Source: Terriglobia bacterium
Lineage (GTDB): Bacteria > Acidobacteriota > Terriglobia > JAJPHL01
Assembly: GCA_021325275.1 (NCBI GenBank)
Contig: JAJPHL010000009.1
Coordinates: 124,001 to 188,000, forward strand
DNA: 64,000 bases
Reading direction: 5' to 3'
The notes beneath the pieces are model-generated. The model ran no database searches. It saw only the letters and a list, made by a program, of their open reading frames with translations, and had not been told where the DNA came from. Positions 46,559-55,164 of the stretch are shown one piece after another. Within the stretch, counting starts at the first letter, position 1; each line of letters starts with the position of its first letter. Made by a program: the position numbers and the translations under genes.

Positions 46559-48451
46559 ATGAAACTTCGCACGCCACTTTTGTTGCTGATCGTCGCCGTG
46601 CTGCTGCCCACGGCGTGCCTGCTGTGGCTGATGATCGCCGCTGTGCGCAACGTGCGCGCGACGGTCGGACAATCGGTGGACAACGTGGATCTGGATCGCC
46701 TGAACGTGACGCGCGATTCTCTCAACGCCGCTTGGCGGGAACAGATGGCGGCGCTCGAGCGGCTCCCGGAAGGCGCAGCGGCGTTTCCGGAAATTGTGCG
46801 GAGGAAACTCGCCGACAGCGCGGTGATTCTCGACGCGTCCGGCGCGCCGCTGTATCCCGCGCCGATGCGATTGCCGAGTCCCGATCCGACGGTGGACGAT
46901 CCGCGATGGATCAAGGCGCGACTGTTGGAAAACACCGCGCCGGCCGCCGCCGCGGCCGCTTACGAGGCGATCGGCCACGAGGCGCAAGCCACATCAACGG
47001 AAGCCGCGCGCGCTTACCAAGGCGCGGCGCGATGCCTGATGAAAGCAGGCGATCGCGAGGCCGCTGTGAAATTGGTTTTCGATCGCTTCAGCGGACCGGC
47101 TTTTGCGCCGGCCACCGATTTGCAAGGGCGTCGCATCCGTCCCGACTTGCTCCTGTTGGTGATTGCTTCGGCGAAGCCCGGAGATCCCCTACTGATCCCC
47201 GCGGCGCGGAACTTGCGCGCGGCGGTGCTTGACTACGGCGGGAATCCTCCGATGCCGTTGCAGCAGCGCGTTTTTCTGATTCACGAAATGCTCGCGAGAA
47301 AACTTCCCGCGGACTTGCTGGACTTCCCGACGCTCCGAGCCGAGGAAATCGCGGCGACTTTTTTGGAGTATCGGCCGCCCATCATGGCCGACGCGTCGCT
47401 GCAGCCCGGTTGGGGATCGGGAATTTGGCAATTCGGACTCGCGAAGGCTCATCTGATCGTGCTTTTTCGCGACGCGACCATTCAACAACGAATGCGGGAA
47501 ATGATCGCCGCGCAAAAACTGCCGCCCGATATTCGGATTACCGCGCTGCCGCCGGGAGCCAAAGTGCCGGACGCAGCTCTGCATGCCGACGCGGGCCGAG
47601 CGTTTCCCGGCTGGCAGTTGGCCGTCGCTCACACCGGCCCCAATCCGCTGGAAGATTTGGCCGCGCGGCAAATGGCGCTCTACGTTTGGACGGGATCGCT
47701 CGTGGCCGTGCTGATCGTATTGCTGACGGTGCTGGCGTTGCGCGCGACGGCGCGCAGCTTGCGTCTGGCGGGCATGAAGGCGGATCTGGTCGCGACCGTT
47801 TCGCATGAATTAAAAACGCCGCTCGCGTCGATGCAATTGCTGGTCGACACGCTCTTGGAAGATGAGCGCATCGACCCTGTGAAGACTCGCGAGTATCTGG
47901 AACTGATCGGGCGCGAGAATGTGCGCTTGAGCCGGTTGATCGGAAATTTCCTGACGTTCTCGCGATTGGAGCGCAACAAATATTCGTTCGACTTCACGGC
48001 GGTTCGCGTCGACGACGTGGTGCGTGCGGCCGTGGCCGCGGCGGGCGAGCGTTTTTCGCAACCCGATTGCCGCTTGACCGTAAACGTAGAGCGCGGCTTG
48101 CCGGAAATTCGCGCCGACGAAGGTGCGCTTGCCACGGCGCTTGTGAATCTGCTCGACAACGCGTACAAATACACGCCGGGCGAGAAACAGATCGAACTGC
48201 GCGCCTACGCGCAAGCGCACGGCGTGTGTCTCGAAGTGCGCGACAACGGAATCGGCATCGCGCCCGGAGAAATCAAGCGGATTTTCCGCGAATTTCACCA
48301 AGCGGACCAGCGGCTCTCGCGCGCGGGCGGCGGCTGCGGCCTGGGACTGGCGATCGTGCGACATCTGGTGGAAGCGCACGGCGGGAGAGTCGATGTCACC
48401 AGTGAAATCGGCAAGGGCAGCACGTTCTCGGTAGCGTTGAGGACAGCATGA
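46559..48451 (+). CDS. Membrane sensor histidine kinase
   Basis: A 630-residue sensor kinase. An N-terminal helix (about 7-28) and a second at about 374-395 flank a ~345-residue extracytoplasmic domain that contains an Ala-rich TPR-like helical stretch near residues 128-170 (AAAAAYEAIGHEAQATS). The cytoplasmic part has His416 in [10 protein letters not shown], the N box NLLDNAYKYTPG, DNGIGI, the FREFHQ F-box and GGGCGLGLAIVR. It belongs to the same kinase type as the one at 255-1925 and overlaps its cognate regulator by four nucleotides (ATGA). Confidence 0.93.
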   Translation: MKLRTPLLLLIVAVLLPTACLLWLMIAAVRNVRATVGQSVDNVDLDRLNVTRDSLNAAWREQMAALERLPEGAAAFPEIVRRKLADSAVILDASGAPLYPAPMRLPSPDPTVDDPRWIKARLLENTAPAAAAAAYEAIGHEAQATSTEAARAYQGAARCLMKAGDREAAVKLVFDRFSGPAFAPATDLQGRRIRPDLLLLVIASAKPGDPLLIPAARNLRAAVLDYGGNPPMPLQQRVFLIHEMLARKLPADLLDFPTLRAEEIAATFLEYRPPIMADASLQPGWGSGIWQFGLAKAHLIVLFRDATIQQRMREMIAAQKLPPDIRITALPPGAKVPDAALHADAGRAFPGWQLAVAHTGPNPLEDLAARQMALYVWTGSLVAVLIVLLTVLALRATARSLRLAGMKADLVATVSHELKTPLASMQLLVDTLLEDERIDPVKTREYLELIGRENVRLSRLIGNFLTFSRLERNKYSFDFTAVRVDDVVRAAVAAAGERFSQPDCRLTVNVERGLPEIRADEGALATALVNLLDNAYKYTPGEKQIELRAYAQAHGVCLEVRDNGIGIAPGEIKRIFREFHQADQRLSRAGGGCGLGLAIVRHLVEAHGGRVDVTSEIGKGSTFSVALRTA

Positions 48452-49137
48452 CAGGCGTGCTAATCATCGAAGACGACTCGGTGTTGTTGCGCGGATTGAA
48501 GGACAATTTTGTCGCGCAGGGATACCGCGTAGAGACCGCCGCCGACGGCGAAGCGGGATTGACCGCGGCGCTTCAGGGGCGGCATGACTTGATCCTGCTC
48601 GACATCATGCTGCCGCGCGTGAACGGATACGAGATTTGCCGCGCGGTGCGGGAGAGCGGCAGCGATGTCCCGATCGTCATGCTCACGGCGAAGGGTCAAG
48701 AGGAGGATATTATCCTCGGCCTGAATCTCGGCGCGGACGACTACGTGACCAAACCGTTCCGCATCCGCGAATTGCTGGCGCGCGCCAAGGCATTTTTGCG
48801 GCGCAGACAAGCCGCGCAGGGCGCCGCGCCTGCGACGTCGTGGAAATTCGGAGCTTTCGAGTTGGACGCGGTGAAGCACAAGCTTTTTCGCGACGGCCGC
48901 GAAGTGGAATTAACCGCCAAGGAATTTCGCCTGCTCGAATATTTCCTGCGGCGGCAGGGACGCGCGCTGGCGCGCAACGACATTTTGAACGCGGTATGGG
49001 GCGCGTCGGTGATGGTCACCGAGCGCAGCGTCGATCGTTGCGTCACGACGTTGCGCGGCAAAGTAGAGGAAGACCCGCGCTGTCCGCGATTCATTCACAC
49101 GATCCGCGAGATCGGGTATCGCTTCGAGGAAGAGTGA
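48448..49137 (+). CDS. PhoB/OmpR-family response regulator
   Basis: A 229-residue transcription regulator. The receiver has the acidic IEDD pair, phospho-acceptor Asp52 in LLDIMLP, Thr in MLTAKGQE, and Lys in YVTKPFR. The C-terminal winged-helix (trans_reg_C) starts near residue 130 with FGAFELD and has LTAKEFRLLEYF and the DNA-recognition region VMVTERSVDRCVTTLR. ATG 48448 overlaps the kinase stop. Its stop is three nucleotides before the convergent DUF2254 gene. Its targets are unknown. Confidence 0.95.
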   Translation: MTGVLIIEDDSVLLRGLKDNFVAQGYRVETAADGEAGLTAALQGRHDLILLDIMLPRVNGYEICRAVRESGSDVPIVMLTAKGQEEDIILGLNLGADDYVTKPFRIRELLARAKAFLRRRQAAQGAAPATSWKFGAFELDAVKHKLFRDGREVELTAKEFRLLEYFLRRQGRALARNDILNAVWGASVMVTERSVDRCVTTLRGKVEEDPRCPRFIHTIREIGYRFEEE

Positions 49138-49140
49138 TCG

Positions 49141-50469
49141 CTAGGGCAACGGATGCGTCGCTTCGCGCAGGGTCGTGAGGCGTTGGCTCAACGGGTACAA
49201 CTCTTCCTGATTCACCTTCTCCGCGCATCCCGCCACCAACCGAATGCCACGCTCCAAAATGACCCGGCGCAGATGCTCGTCGTGCGGAACGGTGGACGCC
49301 ACGTCGCCGAGGGCACGCAGAATTCGCAGGCTCACGGCGATGTCGCCTTTCGAGTACATGCGAATCTGCTCGAACGCCGAGTCGAGCATGCCGTCGCGAT
49401 TCAGCCACGGTACGCTGACGCGCAGCGTTCCCGGCGGATCGTAGAGCAGGCCATCGGGCAGTTCACGAGACGCGAATTCGATCAAGATGCGGCTCAGTTG
49501 ATCGACGCAACTGATCGCGGTACTCGGATCGTTCACCGCCGGGGAAATCGCGCGCAACGCGATGTCGACAATTTGCAGGACGCCGAATTCCACGTCTTGT
49601 TGCAGCGTTCGAGTGGGTCCGAGATCGAACGCGGTGAGGAACGCCTCGGCGGCGTCCGGCGTCAGGCGATCCGAACTGGAAGCGCGCAGCAGCACGCCGC
49701 CGGCAGGAACGAATTGGCCGACGCGGCGCGCCACAGCGACTCTCACTCCCGTCTCCTTCGCCACATCGACCAGGCGCTTGGTATCGACGAAGCGCAGATA
49801 TCCGGACTCCTTGCTGGTAATCGGCACGCGCCACCCCGGCGGCAGCGCGGTGTCGGGCACCGCGAGTTTGCCGTAGCGCCGGGGATGCGGCATGAGGTCG
49901 TTGATCACCACGATCGTTTCGGCGGCGATGCGGTCGACGATGTGATTCACGCTGATCGCTTGCGAAATGTGGTGGATGAAAAACAACAGCAGCACCACGC
50001 ACGCCACGGCGAGCGCCATCGCTCCCAACACTGTCACCACCGGCGCGAACGGCGCGGGCACCGACCGTGCCGCCGGCAGCGCCGCCATGCAATAGCAAAA
50101 TGTGCCGAGAAAAATTCCCAGCGTCCATTGGACGACCTGATCGCGCACGAAACTGACAATGATCCGCGGGGAAAACTGCATCGACGCCAGCGTCAACGTC
50201 ATCAGCAAAATCGCGAAGACGATCGACACCACGGTCATGATCGACGCCGCGATTCCGCCCAGGATCACCTGCGCCAATTGCGGATCGCTGTGCGAGGGAA
50301 ACAGCATGCGCGGGACCCACGAGGCGATCTCGGGCGTCGTCTGTTCCAGCCAGGAAAGCGACGCGCCGACCAGTCCCAGCGTCAACGCAATCGCGAGCGG
50401 ACGCACCAGGAATCCGCCGCGCAGCGTGTACGCGGTCCGGCGAACCAGAAGTAGCGTGCGCTCCATCAT
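49141..50469 (-). CDS. DUF2254 family membrane protein
   Basis: A 442-residue protein of the DUF2254 family. It has four membrane segments in the N-terminal half (LAIALTLGLVGASLSWL, then GIAASIMTVVSIVFAILLMT, TLGIFLGTFCYCMAAL and VVTVLGAMALAVACVVLLLF), followed by a soluble C-terminal part with a conserved RAISPAVNDPSTAISCVDQL. The family's function is not established. Two adjacent ATGs (50469, 50466) are possible starts; the longer open frame upstream overlaps kdpA and is not coding. It is divergent from kdpA across 99 nt. Confidence 0.88.
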   Translation of the reverse strand: MMERTLLLVRRTAYTLRGGFLVRPLAIALTLGLVGASLSWLEQTTPEIASWVPRMLFPSHSDPQLAQVILGGIAASIMTVVSIVFAILLMTLTLASMQFSPRIIVSFVRDQVVQWTLGIFLGTFCYCMAALPAARSVPAPFAPVVTVLGAMALAVACVVLLLFFIHHISQAISVNHIVDRIAAETIVVINDLMPHPRRYGKLAVPDTALPPGWRVPITSKESGYLRFVDTKRLVDVAKETGVRVAVARRVGQFVPAGGVLLRASSSDRLTPDAAEAFLTAFDLGPTRTLQQDVEFGVLQIVDIALRAISPAVNDPSTAISCVDQLSRILIEFASRELPDGLLYDPPGTLRVSVPWLNRDGMLDSAFEQIRMYSKGDIAVSLRILRALGDVASTVPHDEHLRRVILERGIRLVAGCAEKVNQEELYPLSQRLTTLREATHPLP

Positions 50470-50568
50470 GAAGTGTTCCCAGTATACGGTTTCCGGCGCG
50501 GGCCGCGGAACACCCCGAGCGGATGTTTGCGACTTCTTAACGTCCCGTTTTGTATCCTGCTCCCAGGA

Positions 50569-52179
50569 ATGGTTTTTGGCTGGATCCAGATGTTCGCGTT
50601 GCTTGCCGCGCTCGCCACGGTGACGAAACCGCTGGGTGGTTACATGGCGCGCGTCTATACGGGGCGGCGCACGCGGCTGCATTCGGTGCTGCGTCCCATC
50701 GAACGCGCGTGCTATGTCGCGGCCGGCGTGCGAACGTCCGAGCAAACCTGGACGGCATACGCGGCGTCGGTGCTGGCGTTCGGTCTCACGGGCGTCGTGA
50801 CGCTCTATGCGTTGCTGCGATTGCAGCCGCATCCGCTTTCACCCCATTTGGCGTTCAACACCGCCGTGAGTTTCGTTACCAACACCAGTTGGCAGAGCTA
50901 CGCGGGAGAAACGACGCTGAATGCGTGGTCGCAGATGCTGGGAATTGCAGTGCAGAGTTTTGTTTCCTGCGGCGTCAGCATGGCGGTGGCCGTCGCGCTG
51001 TTTCGCGGGATCGCGACGGCGCAAGGCGCTGGAACCATCGGAAACTTTTGGGTGGACTTCACACGATCGGTGGTCTACGTTTTGCTTCCGCTATCGATGG
51101 CGGCGGCCGTTGCGCTGGCAGGTCTCGGCGTAATCCAAAATCTCGCGTCGTCCGCGCGGGTCGTCACGCTCGAAGGCCCGGCGCAGGCCATCGCGCAGGG
51201 TCCGGTGGCGTCGCAGGAAGCGATCAAACTGTTGAGTTCGGATGGAGGCGGTTTTTTCAACGCCAGTTCCGCGCATCCCTACGAGAATCCCACGCCGCTG
51301 TCGTCGTTTCTCTCGATGTTTCTGATCCTGGTGATTCCCGCGTCGATGACCTACACGTTCGGCCGCATCGTTCAAGACACGAGGCAAGGCTGGACGATGT
51401 TCGTGGCGATGGCGCTTCTGCTCACGGTGGGATTCGCCGCCGTGAACTTCGCGGAGCGTGGCAATTGGGAGGGAAAAGATCTTCGATTCGGCACCGCCGG
51501 CGCGGGACTTTTTGCCGAAGTAGCTACTGCCTCGAGTAGCGGCGCGGGAAACGGCGCGCTGGGAAGTTTCACGCCGCTCGGCGTGTTGGTCCTTCTCATC
51601 AACATGCACACGGGCGAGGTGGTGTTCGGCGGACCAGGGTCGGGAATGTACAGCATGCTCGTGCTGGTGCTGCTGACGATCTTCATCGCCGGCTTGATGG
51701 TCGGGCGCACGCCGGAGTACTTGGGACAAAAGATCGAGAAATACGAAGTGAAGATGGTGACGCTAGCGATGCTGCTTACGTCGGCGGCGCTATTGTTCCT
51801 GGCGGCGACCGATGTTTCGCGCCCCGCATTTGACGCCGTTACGCAGCAGGGTCCGCGTGGATTCACGGAGTCGCTGTATGCGTTTACCAGCGCGGTGGCG
51901 AACAACGGAAGCGCGATGGCCGGGTTGAACGCGAATAATCCTTGGTACGACACGCTGCTGGCGTTGGGCATGCTCGCCGGTCGCTATCTGGTGATCCTGC
52001 CGGTGCTCGCGATTGCCGGAAGTCTGGCGCGGAAGAAGCGCTACACGATGGAAGGTGCGATGCCCACGCATGGTTTCGTCTTCGGATTGCTGCTGTGCGC
52101 GGTCACGCTGCTGGTGACCGGAATCACGTATCTGCCGGCGTTTTTCTTGGGTCCGCTGGCGGAATACTTTCAAAGATAG
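50569..52179 (+). CDS. kdpA: Potassium-transporting ATPase subunit A, orphan
   Basis: A 536-residue polytopic protein of the KdpA family (E. coli KdpA is 557). Selectivity-loop regions are present: VTNTSWQSYAGETT (103-116), SSDGGGFFNASSAHPYENPT (223-242), GEVVFGGPGSGMY (349-361) and SAVANNGSAMAG (441-452). Some positions differ from the usual loop (DGGG for NGGG, VANNG for NNNG). KdpA is the K+-binding subunit that works only with KdpB, C and F. No kdpF, kdpB, kdpC, kdpD or kdpE is present here: a ribbon-helix-helix gene and dnaX follow. It therefore cannot work as a local Kdp pump. Confidence 0.93.
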   Translation: MVFGWIQMFALLAALATVTKPLGGYMARVYTGRRTRLHSVLRPIERACYVAAGVRTSEQTWTAYAASVLAFGLTGVVTLYALLRLQPHPLSPHLAFNTAVSFVTNTSWQSYAGETTLNAWSQMLGIAVQSFVSCGVSMAVAVALFRGIATAQGAGTIGNFWVDFTRSVVYVLLPLSMAAAVALAGLGVIQNLASSARVVTLEGPAQAIAQGPVASQEAIKLLSSDGGGFFNASSAHPYENPTPLSSFLSMFLILVIPASMTYTFGRIVQDTRQGWTMFVAMALLLTVGFAAVNFAERGNWEGKDLRFGTAGAGLFAEVATASSSGAGNGALGSFTPLGVLVLLINMHTGEVVFGGPGSGMYSMLVLVLLTIFIAGLMVGRTPEYLGQKIEKYEVKMVTLAMLLTSAALLFLAATDVSRPAFDAVTQQGPRGFTESLYAFTSAVANNGSAMAGLNANNPWYDTLLALGMLAGRYLVILPVLAIAGSLARKKRYTMEGAMPTHGFVFGLLLCAVTLLVTGITYLPAFFLGPLAEYFQR

Positions 52180-52188
52180 ATCGCGGAA

Positions 52189-52207
52189 GATAGTGTGAGA
52201 CACTATC
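52189..52207. promoter_or_regulatory. Perfect 8-bp palindrome between kdpA and RHH gene
   Basis: GATAGTGT (52189-52196), loop GAG, ACACTATC (52200-52207). A weaker outer pair CGCGGAA/TTCCGCG (52182-52188, 52224-52230) surrounds it. It lies 54 nt upstream of the ribbon-helix-helix start. It could be the end hairpin of the kdpA transcript (there is no T run) or the operator of the RHH protein, as is usual for such self-regulating proteins. Confidence 0.5.
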
Positions 52208-52261
52208 CGAAAGTCCGCGTGATTTCCGCGAGACTTGCGACGGCCACTGAAAGGGAGGACT

Positions 52262-52495
52262 ATGACATACGTTAAGAGCGATCCCGAGTACGACGAGGTT
52301 ACTTACAACCGCACTTGGGCGCGAGCCGCGACGCGGCGGCTGAAGAAAGCGCGAAAAACGCCGACATCCGTTGCGCTCGATCCAAAGACGATCGCGCAAC
52401 TGCGGCGGGAGGCCGTTGCGCGGGGCATTCCGTACCAAGTCCTGATGCGGATGTTAATTGTCGAGGGTCTTGGCAGACTGAAGAAAGCGAGCTGA
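52262..52495 (+). CDS. Ribbon-helix-helix (CopG/BrnA-like) protein
   Basis: A 77-residue basic protein. The C-terminal part forms a beta-strand plus two helices of the RHH fold: SVALDPKTIAQLRREAVARG and then IPYQVLMRMLIVEGLGRL, close to BrnA/CopG antitoxins (the IPYQ turn is typical). The N-terminal ~30 residues are Tyr/Arg-rich. A GGGAGGA site five nucleotides upstream fixes ATG 52262. No toxin (BrnT or RelE-like) is adjacent, so it is either an orphan antitoxin or a stand-alone regulator. The nearby palindrome could be its operator. Confidence 0.78.
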   Translation: MTYVKSDPEYDEVTYNRTWARAATRRLKKARKTPTSVALDPKTIAQLRREAVARGIPYQVLMRMLIVEGLGRLKKAS

Positions 52496-52567
52496 AGCCA
52501 GCTATGATGGCTCCGCGCGCCGCCGTGCTATTATCAATAACGTCATCTCCCGTTAACGCATCCTTCC

Positions 52568-54259
52568 ATGTACACGGTCATCGCGCGAAAATACCGGCCT
52601 CAGACTTTTTCCGAAGTCGTTAACCAAGAGCACATCAAGCAAACGCTGCACAACGCCATCGAACAGAAACGCCTGGCGCACGGCTACGTGTTTTCGGGAC
52701 AGCGGGGCACCGGCAAAACGACTATGGCACGACTGCTGGCCAAGGCGCTGAATTGTTCCAATCGCGCGCCGGGTAGCGTGGAGCCGTGCGGAACGTGCGC
52801 GTCCTGCACCGAAGTCGCTGCGGGATCGGCCGTCGACGTCATCGAAATCGACGCGGCGTCGAATCGCGGCATCGACGATATTCGCGGACTCCGTGAAAAC
52901 GCGCGTTACGCGCCGGCGCGCGATCCCTACAAGTTTTTCATCGTCGACGAAGCGCACCAGCTCACGAAAGAAGCGTGGAACGCGCTCCTGAAGACGCTGG
53001 AAGAGCCGCCGCCGCACGTGATCTTTGTGCTCTGCACCACGGAAGCGCATTCGATTCCGCAGACGATTGTCTCGCGCTGCCAAACATTCGCGTTTCACAA
53101 TCTCGGTTTCGAGGAAACCGTTCGCCAACTCGAACACATTTGCCAAAGCGAAGGCATCGAAGCGACCGAAGAAGCGCTCGCGGTGATCACGCAGGCGGGC
53201 GAAGGCAGTTTGCGCGATTCGCTCTCCACGCTGGACCAAGCGATCGCCTGTTGCGGCGCGAAGCTCGATGGCGAAGCGTTGCGCCAACTCCTTGGCGTGG
53301 TCACAACGCAAGCGCTCGACGAAGCGGTGGAGGCGGTGTCCACGCAATCGGCGGAACGAGCGCTCGCGCTGGTCGACAATTTGGTGCGCGAAGGACAAAA
53401 CCTGCGCAACTTCGCATCGCAGTTGGCGCGGCACTTCCGCAATTTGCTGGTGGTGAAGACGGCGCCGGGATCGCCGCGGCTCGTGGAAGCGTCGCGTGCC
53501 GAGCGCGAACGCATTTCGTCGGTCGCCGCCCAATTCTCGGAAGAAGATTTAACACGCTATCTGCAGATTGTCCTGAAGCTGTATCAGGAATTGCAATTCT
53601 CGCCGCAGCCGCGATTCCACACCGAGCTGGGACTCATGAAGTTGATCCAGGCGGGACGCCTCGCCTCGATCGAAGACGTGTTGGCGCGACTCGATCGCGG
53701 CGGCAGCGCTTTGCCGCCATCGGGACCACCGTCGGCGGGCCCGCAAGTTCCGCGGTCACCGAGCGGTCCTTCGCCGTTTGAGCGCGACCAAGCGCGTCGC
53801 GCCGCCGAACCGGCACGCAAACCGGGACCGTCCGCGGCCGCACCGCCGCCGACTCCCTCGGCGAGCGACGAAGAATTCGCCGCGCAAATGATGGCTCGCG
53901 TGGAAGCGATGAACAAAACCATGCTGGCGATCCACTTGGAGCGCGCTATTTGGGACGTCCGCGACGATAGCGTCACGGCGGGATATCCCGCGGGCACCAG
54001 CGCGGTGAACATGCCGGGACAAGAGGAGCAGCGCCTGCTGGCGTCGCTTTCGTCCGAGATTCTCGGCCGCCCCGTTTCGTTTCGCGTAACGCTGCTGAAT
54101 GCAGAAGAAGCCGCGAAGGCCGCGGCCGCCGCCACTCCAGCCAAACCACCATCGGGAGCACTCAACAATCTTGGCGCGCTCGCCGACAATCCCGAGATCG
54201 CCGACTTCATGCGCTTCTTCCCCGGCGCGAAGATCGAAGAGCAGAAACGCAGGAGCTAG
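52568..54259 (+). CDS. dnaX: DNA polymerase III subunit gamma/tau
   Basis: A 563-residue clamp-loader ATPase. The AAA+ domain starts with YRPQTFSEVVNQEHI and shows Walker A GQRGTGKTT, a four-Cys zinc region (CGTCASC), Walker B DEAHQL, the sensor CTTEAHSIPQTI and SRCQTF. The middle collar domain is about residues 240-360. A Pro/Ser/Gly-rich linker (residues ~370-430) leads to a C-terminal tau-like domain. It is followed by ebfC and recR, the standard order in bacteria. A 72-nt gap with no visible ffs (4.5S RNA) precedes it. Confidence 0.95.
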   Translation: MYTVIARKYRPQTFSEVVNQEHIKQTLHNAIEQKRLAHGYVFSGQRGTGKTTMARLLAKALNCSNRAPGSVEPCGTCASCTEVAAGSAVDVIEIDAASNRGIDDIRGLRENARYAPARDPYKFFIVDEAHQLTKEAWNALLKTLEEPPPHVIFVLCTTEAHSIPQTIVSRCQTFAFHNLGFEETVRQLEHICQSEGIEATEEALAVITQAGEGSLRDSLSTLDQAIACCGAKLDGEALRQLLGVVTTQALDEAVEAVSTQSAERALALVDNLVREGQNLRNFASQLARHFRNLLVVKTAPGSPRLVEASRAERERISSVAAQFSEEDLTRYLQIVLKLYQELQFSPQPRFHTELGLMKLIQAGRLASIEDVLARLDRGGSALPPSGPPSAGPQVPRSPSGPSPFERDQARRAAEPARKPGPSAAAPPPTPSASDEEFAAQMMARVEAMNKTMLAIHLERAIWDVRDDSVTAGYPAGTSAVNMPGQEEQRLLASLSSEILGRPVSFRVTLLNAEEAAKAAAAATPAKPPSGALNNLGALADNPEIADFMRFFPGAKIEEQKRRS

Positions 54260-54263
54260 GAGC

Positions 54264-54563
54264 ATGAATCTTCCGGAAATGCTGCAACAGGCCCGCAAGG
54301 TCCAGGAGCAAATGCAGAAGCAGCTCCAGGAACTGCGCGTGGAAGCGTCGTCGGGCGGCGGCATGGTGCGGGTGGTGATGAACGGCCAAAAATACGTTCT
54401 ATCGCTCACGATCGATCCGGAATTGTGGAAAGAACACGATGCCGAAATGCTGCAAGACCTGGTGATGGGCGCGGTGAATCAAGCGTCGCAAAAGGTCGAC
54501 GAGCAGATGCAGCAAAAAGTTGGATCGCTCCTCGGCGGCATGAGCATGCCGCCGATTTCCTAA
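54264..54563 (+). CDS. ebfC: YbaB/EbfC family nucleoid-associated protein
   Basis: A 99-residue small DNA-binding protein. The pattern [20 protein letters not shown], then [17 protein letters not shown] and [16 protein letters not shown] is the family signature. It forms a dimer that binds DNA and affects nucleoid structure or recombination. The start is ATG 54264, five nucleotides after the dnaX stop with an AGGAGC site. The stop is one nucleotide before recR. Operon structure dnaX-ebfC-recR is conserved widely. Confidence 0.94.
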
Positions 54564-54564
54564 C

Positions 54565-55164
54565 ATGCCCGATTACGCCGCTCCTCTCGAAAGACTGATT
54601 TTGCAGTTCAAGAAACTTCCCGGCATCGGCGCGAAGTCGGCGCAGCGCCTGGCGTTCGACGTGCTGCGCCGCGGACCCGGCGAGGCGCGCGAGTTGGTCG
54701 ATGCGATCATCGAAGTTACCGAGCACATGGGTTGCTGCTCGGTGTGCAACAACATCACCGACGTCGATCCGTGCCAGTTTTGCAGCGACCCGAGTCGCGA
54801 TCCGCACGTGCTTTGCGTGGTCGAGCAGCCGCAAAACATTTTGTCCGTCGAGAAGACGCGCCAATATCGCGGACGCTATCACGTGCTGCTCGGCAGCATC
54901 TCGCCGCTCAAGGGAATCGGGCCGGACCAGTTACGGATCAAGAGCTTGGTGGATCGTTTGAAGGACGGCGTGATTACCGAAGTGATCGCCGCGACCAATC
55001 CCACCACCGAAGGCGAAGCCACCGCCGTGTATCTCGCGAAATTGCTCAAGCCGCTCGGCGTCATGGTGTCGCGCATCGCCTTGGGATTGCCGGTCGGTAG
55101 CGATCTAGAGTACGCCGACGAAGTCACGATGCTTAAGGCCATGGAAGGCAGGCGGGCGTTGTAG
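54565..55164 (+). CDS. recR: Recombination mediator protein RecR
   Basis: A 199-residue protein that helps load RecA at gaps with RecO and RecF. An HhH region ([19 protein letters not shown]) is followed by a four-Cys zinc finger ([16 protein letters not shown]), then the Toprim domain with [15 protein letters not shown] and [19 protein letters not shown]. The length is normal (201 in E. coli). It ends the dnaX-ebfC-recR run. A word-repeat hairpin array lies directly downstream, before the MntR-like gene. Confidence 0.96.

Follow-up and report, generated by a model that had tools for sequence, protein, structure and literature searches.

KdpA is known as a pump subunit. Here we describe a kdpA gene that stands apart from kdpB and kdpC in a 64,000-nucleotide stretch of a Terriglobia bacterium genome (Acidobacteriota; GenBank assembly GCA_021325275.1, contig JAJPHL010000009.1, positions 124,001 to 188,000 of the forward strand), hereafter the window. 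The gene occupies positions 50569..52179 of the forward strand, starts at an ATG at 50569 and encodes 536 aa. Both curated KdpA models matched the protein over its full length: the Pfam model (PF03814) scored 626 bits across profile positions 3-548 of 548, and the NCBIfam equivalog kdpA (TIGR00680) scored 552.6 bits against a cut-off of 387.7. The predicted structure, with a predicted local distance difference test score (pLDDT) of 80.5 and a predicted template modelling score (pTM) of 0.88, showed the KdpA fold, matching E. coli KdpA (5mrw_A) with template modelling (TM) scores of 0.89/0.87 and 44% identity; the surroundings of the filter loops had pLDDT < 50, and no geometry is claimed from this model. 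When KdpB and KdpC of the same genome served as tblastn queries, neither kdpB nor kdpC was found in the window (no kdpF search was made), and the gene therefore lacks the shared operon with kdpB and kdpC that marks a component of KdpFABC. The profiles and tblastn thus confirmed the arrangement described in the initial annotation, a full-length kdpA without kdpB or kdpC alongside, located between a DUF2254 gene and a ribbon-helix-helix gene followed by dnaX.

The term orphan, which had been applied to this gene, holds for the locus and not for the genome. Within the same genome (6.86 Mb, 97.6% complete), the suggested check for kdpB, kdpC and another kdpA turned up a complete, canonical kdpA-kdpB-kdpC on contig C28 (G000:C28:71918-76324), which supplies the genome's sole KdpB and sole KdpC above cut-off. 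The window gene is therefore a second KdpA and not what remains of the genome's sole Kdp system. It had also been proposed that the gene might be the remnant of an operon at this site. We searched 30 relatives for dnaX, and 15 of them held matches to both kdpA and dnaX. Judged by the positions of the two matches, and not by reading the sequence upstream of dnaX, kdpA was near dnaX in none of these 15 (different contigs in 14, 1.2 Mb apart in G020); the set consists mostly of drafts, in which adjacency across contig ends is possible. Neither a remnant nor a recent deletion of kdpBC at this site is supported by this distribution.

Related loci were collected by scanning the contigs of genomes with the window protein, which returned the best 80 of 144 related stretches; the scan used six sequence patterns, including 'DGGGFFNA', which favours Asp231 (numbering follows E. 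coli KdpA throughout). We called a copy solo when no kdpB lay within 1.5 kb downstream on the same strand. The aligned rows comprised 38 solo copies (window included) and 80 operonic copies (E. coli included), after two merged kdpA genes at locus L050 had been separated by hand and 12 rows, short or at contig ends, had been dropped before counting. Five of the dropped rows (L066, L074, L098, L105, and L113) are solos that also carry Ser114 and Asp231, one (L095) is an operonic copy cut by a contig end, and the others are fragments or operonic.

The filter of the window copy reads N-T-S / S-D-G / S-S-G / N-N-G and departs from the canonical operonic filter, N-T-N / T-N-G / S-C(N,T)-G / N-N-G. 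By alignment, its four loops were located on the forward strand at 50881..50889 (loop 1, N-T-S, with Ser for E. coli Asn114), 51235..51246 (loop 2, S-S-D-G for G229-T230-N231-G232), 51535..51543 (loop 3, S-S-G, with Ser at position 344), and 51901..51909 (loop 4, N-N-G, canonical). Ser114 was present in 38 of 38 solos and in none of the 80 operonic rows, which carried Asn (78) or Asp (2); Asp231 was likewise found in all 38 solos, against Asn in 80 of 80 operonic rows; and position 230 was Gly or Ser in every solo and Thr in 79 of 80 operonic rows. Position 344 was more variable, being Asp in 32 solos, Ser in five (window included), and Asn in one, and Cys (60), Asn (12), Thr (6), or Asp (2) among the 80 operonic copies. 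Gln116 and the three filter glycines were retained in solos, and all 38 showed S-G-G-G at the four loop glycine positions (S114, G232, G345, and G468 equivalents), where the treatment of Asn114 as a glycine-equivalent is inferred from the loop sequences.

These counts bear on the suggestion that changes in the selectivity loops 'DGGG' and 'VANNG' may signal altered function. The substitutions recur in solo KdpA across phyla, in support of that suggestion, and 'DGGG' proved diagnostic through Asp231. In 'VANNG' nothing stands out: Asn466-Asn467-Gly468 match the canonical sequence, and 14 of 80 operonic rows likewise have Ala465. The Ser at position 114 is a further change that had not been noted in the initial annotation.

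Whether the Asp231 signature merely reflected the patterns used in the scan was checked in two samples found by profile, one from Acidobacteriota and one from the class of G077, and this explanation was rejected. For Acidobacteriota, 149 places were listed and 131 read (30 loci and 100 regions, one of which held two), yielding 128 operonic copies, two solos, and one KdpA at a contig end; the places left unread were the window copy, L007 and L026 (already operonic rows), four whole places (in G137, G160, G335, and G363), and 11 partial or weak ones. For the class of G077, 22 places were listed and 20 regions read, the solo of G077 itself (L062) being left out as already counted, and kdpB lay downstream of kdpA in all 20. 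Neither Ser114 nor Asp231 occurred in any operonic KdpA of the two samples (0 of 128 and 0 of 20); the three operonic sets (80, 128, and 20) partly overlap and are not additive. The solos L188 and L212 carry a different altered filter, T-T-T / T-N-G / A-T-G / N-N-G, with Thr114, and Asp231 is therefore not a rule for every solo KdpA.

The solo rows were drawn from Acidobacteriota, Pseudomonadota (Alpha, Beta, and one Gamma), Actinomycetota, Bacteroidota, and Ignavibacteriota, a spread that excludes a unique local oddity at the window. In 24 of the 38 loci no kdpB was present in the flanks (up to 8 kb, shorter at contig ends). Judged from its sequence, the window KdpA belongs to a class of solo KdpA paralogues that recurs, and that seems to be a protein type which has drawn little notice and not a relic. 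All six second or solo copies tested against the kdpA equivalog model scored above its cut-off.

We next considered how the class arose. On the tree, the solo label requires at least five changes. A clade of 20 solos from Acidobacteriota and Alphaproteobacteria had a support of 97, while Actinomycetota solos were placed beside Actinomycetota operonic KdpA (support 99), Bacteroidota and Ignavibacteriota solos beside a Bacteroidota operonic KdpA (support 96), and Burkholderia-group solos, less firmly, beside Burkholderiaceae operonic KdpA (support 87); L078 formed a further separate placement. After masking of the columns that cover the filter and nearby loop positions, the approximately unbiased (AU) test rejected one clade holding all solos (p = 1.3e-5; 36 solo and 61 operonic rows, quick tree), a test that long branches may bias and before which 21 rows had been thinned (the six divergent operonic rows described below, two other long-branch operonic rows, and near-duplicates for the remainder). 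Since the rejection was obtained with the filter masked, the filter itself seems to be of repeated origin. Agreement among solos of different phyla beyond that of operonic copies, compared over 19 solo and 17 operonic rows, was highest at positions 114 and 231 (1.0), followed by 227 (0.96) and 344 (0.94), with the next columns at ≤0.55. Repeated convergence on the solo filter is the plain reading of these sequence patterns; alternatively, the filter may have arisen once, with resident operonic copies later replacing the remainder of the gene.

Compared with the KdpA of KdpFABC (TIGR00680, PF03814; 5mrw, 6hra), solo proteins share full-length homology, the fold, Q116, E370, R400, R493, and the four-loop pore. 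They differ in having no kdpB or kdpC alongside, in N114S, T230G/S, N231D, and mostly C344D, in Pro for Val376 (51634..51636, forward strand, in the window copy; Pro in 25 of 38 solos, against Val in 70 of the 74 operonic rows that remain when six divergent ones are excluded), and in a faster C-terminal helix. With TrkH and KtrB, the superfamily fold is common (TM 0.49-0.56), although identity is only 14-17%. TrkH and KtrB of the Trk and Ktr systems conduct without a P-type ATPase. The fold match to HKT is weaker (TM to query 0.40-0.47, 11-15% identity), and the likeness to class I HKT, namely Ser at the loop 1 glycine-equivalent and Gly in loops 2-4, comes from the loop alignment and the accessible part of PMC3821619.

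We tentatively favour, as the best of several uncertain readings, a solo KdpA that would be a channel-like cation permease working without KdpB and beside the pump. The altered filter (Ser114, Gly/Ser230, Asp231, and mostly Asp344) would select cations that cross the pore of KdpA itself, driven by the membrane potential and without ATP, and KdpB would not be lastingly needed. The protein would then be a permease of the KdpA/TrkH/KtrB/HKT superfamily that acts alongside KdpFABC, in some genomes from the same operon, and by analogy with class I plant HKT transporters, which have a similar S-G-G-G pattern, its choice of ion may differ from that of KdpFABC, which strictly prefers K+. The observation that carries this proposal concerns the surface facing KdpB. 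In E. coli, KdpB contacts V538 and L541 of the C-terminal helix and F386, L389, and R400 of the coupling helix, according to the accessible part of PMC6255902. Relative to each of two operonic sets, the solos had a faster-evolving C-terminal helix (525-557; log rate higher by +0.42 and +0.38, p < 0.001 in both cases), whereas comparisons of one operonic set with another gave +0.03 and -0.13; other measures agreed (p = 0.022 for 530-550 and p = 0.001 for 525-557). These p values are uncorrected, from runs of 16 to 21 regions with borders that we chose. In relative distance, solos exceeded operonic copies in the C-terminal helix (1.04-1.10 vs 0.73-0.84) and the coupling helix (0.68-0.74 vs 0.45-0.50), and were tighter in filter loops 1-2 (0.39-0.40 vs 0.50-0.52), a pattern alike in kdpB-linked and unlinked solos. 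The drift of the C-terminal surface that faces KdpB, seen even in solos encoded close to kdpABC, together with the conservation of the filter, leads us to place the channel reading slightly ahead of its close rival, in which the solo protein would replace operonic KdpA as an exchange subunit, share KdpB, KdpC, and KdpF, and alter the ion affinity or selectivity of the pump. We regard such an exchange as a serious but somewhat less probable possibility, against which the freer C-terminal helix, in linked and unlinked solos alike, also speaks.

Several observations weigh against a stand-alone channel, and much of this evidence favours exchange. The pump is nearly always at hand: KdpB scored above cut-off in 37 of 40 solo genomes (the genome of L060 excluded) and was split over contigs in two pieces in one further solo genome, and KdpC was found in 39 of 41, compared with KdpA matches in 138 of 396 Acidobacteriota and, for the class of G077, in 19 of 185 genomes. 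This co-occurrence can also be explained by an origin through duplication together with a shared low-K+ biology, and G061 (SbA4) and G076 yielded neither KdpB above cut-off nor KdpC, though both are metagenome-assembled genomes (the accessible part of PMC6018796 gives no completeness for SbA4). In 14 of 38 solos kdpB is in the same locus, in some cases within what seems to be a single operon: in L109, kdpA-B-C-D-E is followed by a gene for a 141-aa protein and then the solo kdpA; in L054, kdpA-B-C is followed by a response regulator gene and then the solo kdpA; and in L050 and L060 about 0.4 kb separates the end of the solo gene from the kdpABC that follows it. Such linked arrangements suggest joint control and allow subunit sharing, as does kdpA-B-C-kdpA2 with the other altered filter in L188. 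L078, counted as solo, lies at a contig end immediately after kdpB and kdpC, and it may in fact be the KdpA of the operon to which they belong. Of 132 operon-invariant positions, 111 were kept in at least 80% of solos. Glu370 in the vestibule, at the tunnel entrance (51616..51618 in the window copy; role in PMC12629597), Arg400, which contacts the KdpB P domain in E. coli (51706..51708; accessible part of PMC6255902), and Arg493 of the vestibule (51982..51984), all on the forward strand, were invariant in 38 of 38 solos. By site rates, the coupling helix was not significantly faster in solos (p = 0.32 and 0.10), and the eight named KdpB contacts were faster against one operonic set (p = 0.024) and not against the other (0.31), with an operonic control of +0.27 (p = 0.14). 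One direction of the operonic-operonic comparison likewise showed slower evolution of filter loops 1 and 2, the 13 filter residues alone showed no rate difference between solo and operonic copies, and loop 304-326, which has no known KdpB contact, was also freer in solos (p = 0.011). It was the arrangement at L078 and the non-significant coupling-helix test that lowered our confidence in the channel and raised it in exchange.

The E. coli KdpA pore is sealed below the intramembrane loop (accessible part of PMC6255902), and no sequence result shows an opening in solos. The laboratory mutants G232D and Q116R of operonic E. coli KdpA, at residues that solos keep as Gly232 and Gln116, both have altered affinity, and G232D altered selectivity as well, with the pump still coupled (PMC12629597), as expected if an exchanged subunit changed the ion range. 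G232D gains Rb+ and NH4+ and hardly Na+ (PMC12629597; PMC6255902, accessible part), which disfavours a simple step to Na+; S-G-G-G marks Na+-preferring class I HKT, but Ser-bearing, K+-carrying exceptions among HKT exist and argue further against a Na+ preference (PMC3821619, accessible part). The indirect signs on assembly with KdpB, KdpC, and KdpF point both ways. The distant kdpBC that the initial annotation envisaged as a partner does exist on C28; partnership with it and the channel-like protein proposed there as another option are both plausible. A role as regulator or sensor, in which the solo KdpA would respond to cations outside the cell by signalling to KdpDE or restraining the pump and would conduct no ions itself, seems improbable to us: signalling genes were near six of 26 scanned loci (window, L054, L067, L104 with DUF4118, L109 with kdpDE, and L116 with a KdpD-like gene), but the other 20 had none among the neighbours scanned (some neighbours per locus), and the pore residues and vestibule charges are retained. 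Returning to the channel reading, its broadest form would have KdpA duplicates repeatedly and independently leaving the pump in several phyla, gaining the same Ser-Gly-Gly-Gly plus Asp filter, and turning into cation channels that act alone and whose ion preference has shifted (possibly to Na+, NH4+, or relaxed K+). Databases would conceal such channels, since every one of them receives the name 'KdpA' from the equivalog model; we consider this full scenario doubtful.

The window copy is the most divergent of the solos. Its end branch of 1.01 is the longest among them (tree median 0.18), it departs from the consensus at 12 of 103 near-invariant positions, more than any other of 112 rows (next highest six, median one), and two of its loops lack about 9 and about 14 residues relative to E. 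coli. From these sequence features some loss of constraint is likely. That the gene is a decaying duplicate, derived from the solo class and now under weak constraint, is nevertheless unlikely, since the 536-codon frame is open with no stop despite the divergence, and the equivalents of Ser114, Asp231, Gly232, Gly345, Gly468, E370, R400, and R493 are retained; the class filter at 114, 230, and 231 is kept together with the vestibule charges. The closest orthologue, among the best 80 of 144 stretches, has 56% identity, which is too far for dN/dS.

No paper on a solo or second KdpA was found in titles and abstract openings, in a search that covered the kdpA literature in part, with preprints and most subscription journals outside it. 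A recurrent solo class would offer a natural experiment on selectivity determinants in the superfamily, and it would bear on the ways in which a P-type ATPase gains or loses a channel-like partner. Some proteins that the curated model labels 'potassium-transporting ATPase subunit KdpA' may belong to no ATPase and may not prefer K+.

At the window, the kdpA gene is divergent from the DUF2254 membrane protein gene (49141..50469, reverse strand, 345 bits), and the 99-base intergenic gap between them (50470..50568) presumably holds both promoters. The ribbon-helix-helix protein of 77 aa (52262..52495, forward strand; ATG at 52262, preceded by a GGGAGGA stretch) matched CopG_antitoxin at 23.4 bits, below the cut-off of 28. 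By tblastn against the loci of the comparison set, its gene matched only the window and its copy L002, and it is probably an unrelated neighbour of the solo kdpA. It stands alone, a toxin partner having been sought among adjacent genes only, and dnaX lies 3′ of it, at 52568. No Rfam family reached the gathering threshold in window positions 48000-55000.

No shared neighbour emerged as a general partner of solo KdpA. DUF2254 of the window's subtype was near solo KdpA in six of 38 loci, to which L102 adds a partial 44% match; in the window, L048, L064, L080, L086, and L091 this subtype (about 60-66% identity) lies within about 1.3 kb of the solo gene. It also adjoins an operonic kdpA in G042 (L024, G042:C23:59530-60822), and among 61 genomes (own and 60 relatives) strong matches were confined to the window genome and G042. 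These associations hint at a K+-linked role of DUF2254. Beta-barrel genes (BBP2 or Phenol_MetA_deg) were near solo kdpA in four of the 26 loci with any neighbour scanned, adjoining it at L041:9668-10390, L042:6276-7823, L059:6141-6929, and L067:6870-7961, and may mean a linked outer-membrane step. Small unannotated proteins were near solo kdpA in Burkholderia relatives.

Several minor observations were made along the way. The six divergent operonic KdpA rows (L039, L048, L054, L060, L082, and L101) have Asn (five) or Gln (one) in place of Glu370, and five of the six share a locus with a solo KdpA. At 338 aa, the KdpC of L054 is long, and its Pfam match is split; KdpC tblastn matches are also split in L082 and L101. 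L188:2278-8524, from an acidobacterium, is an apparent operon kdpA-kdpB-kdpC-kdpA2 in which the second KdpA has the Thr114 filter, as in L212. A search of plasmid records gave 465 matching records. Beside solo KdpA in Microtetraspora, the KdpD-like protein encoded at L116:5329-7212 gave no match to a kinase domain, and the protein encoded at L104:9703-10455 matched DUF4118 alone.

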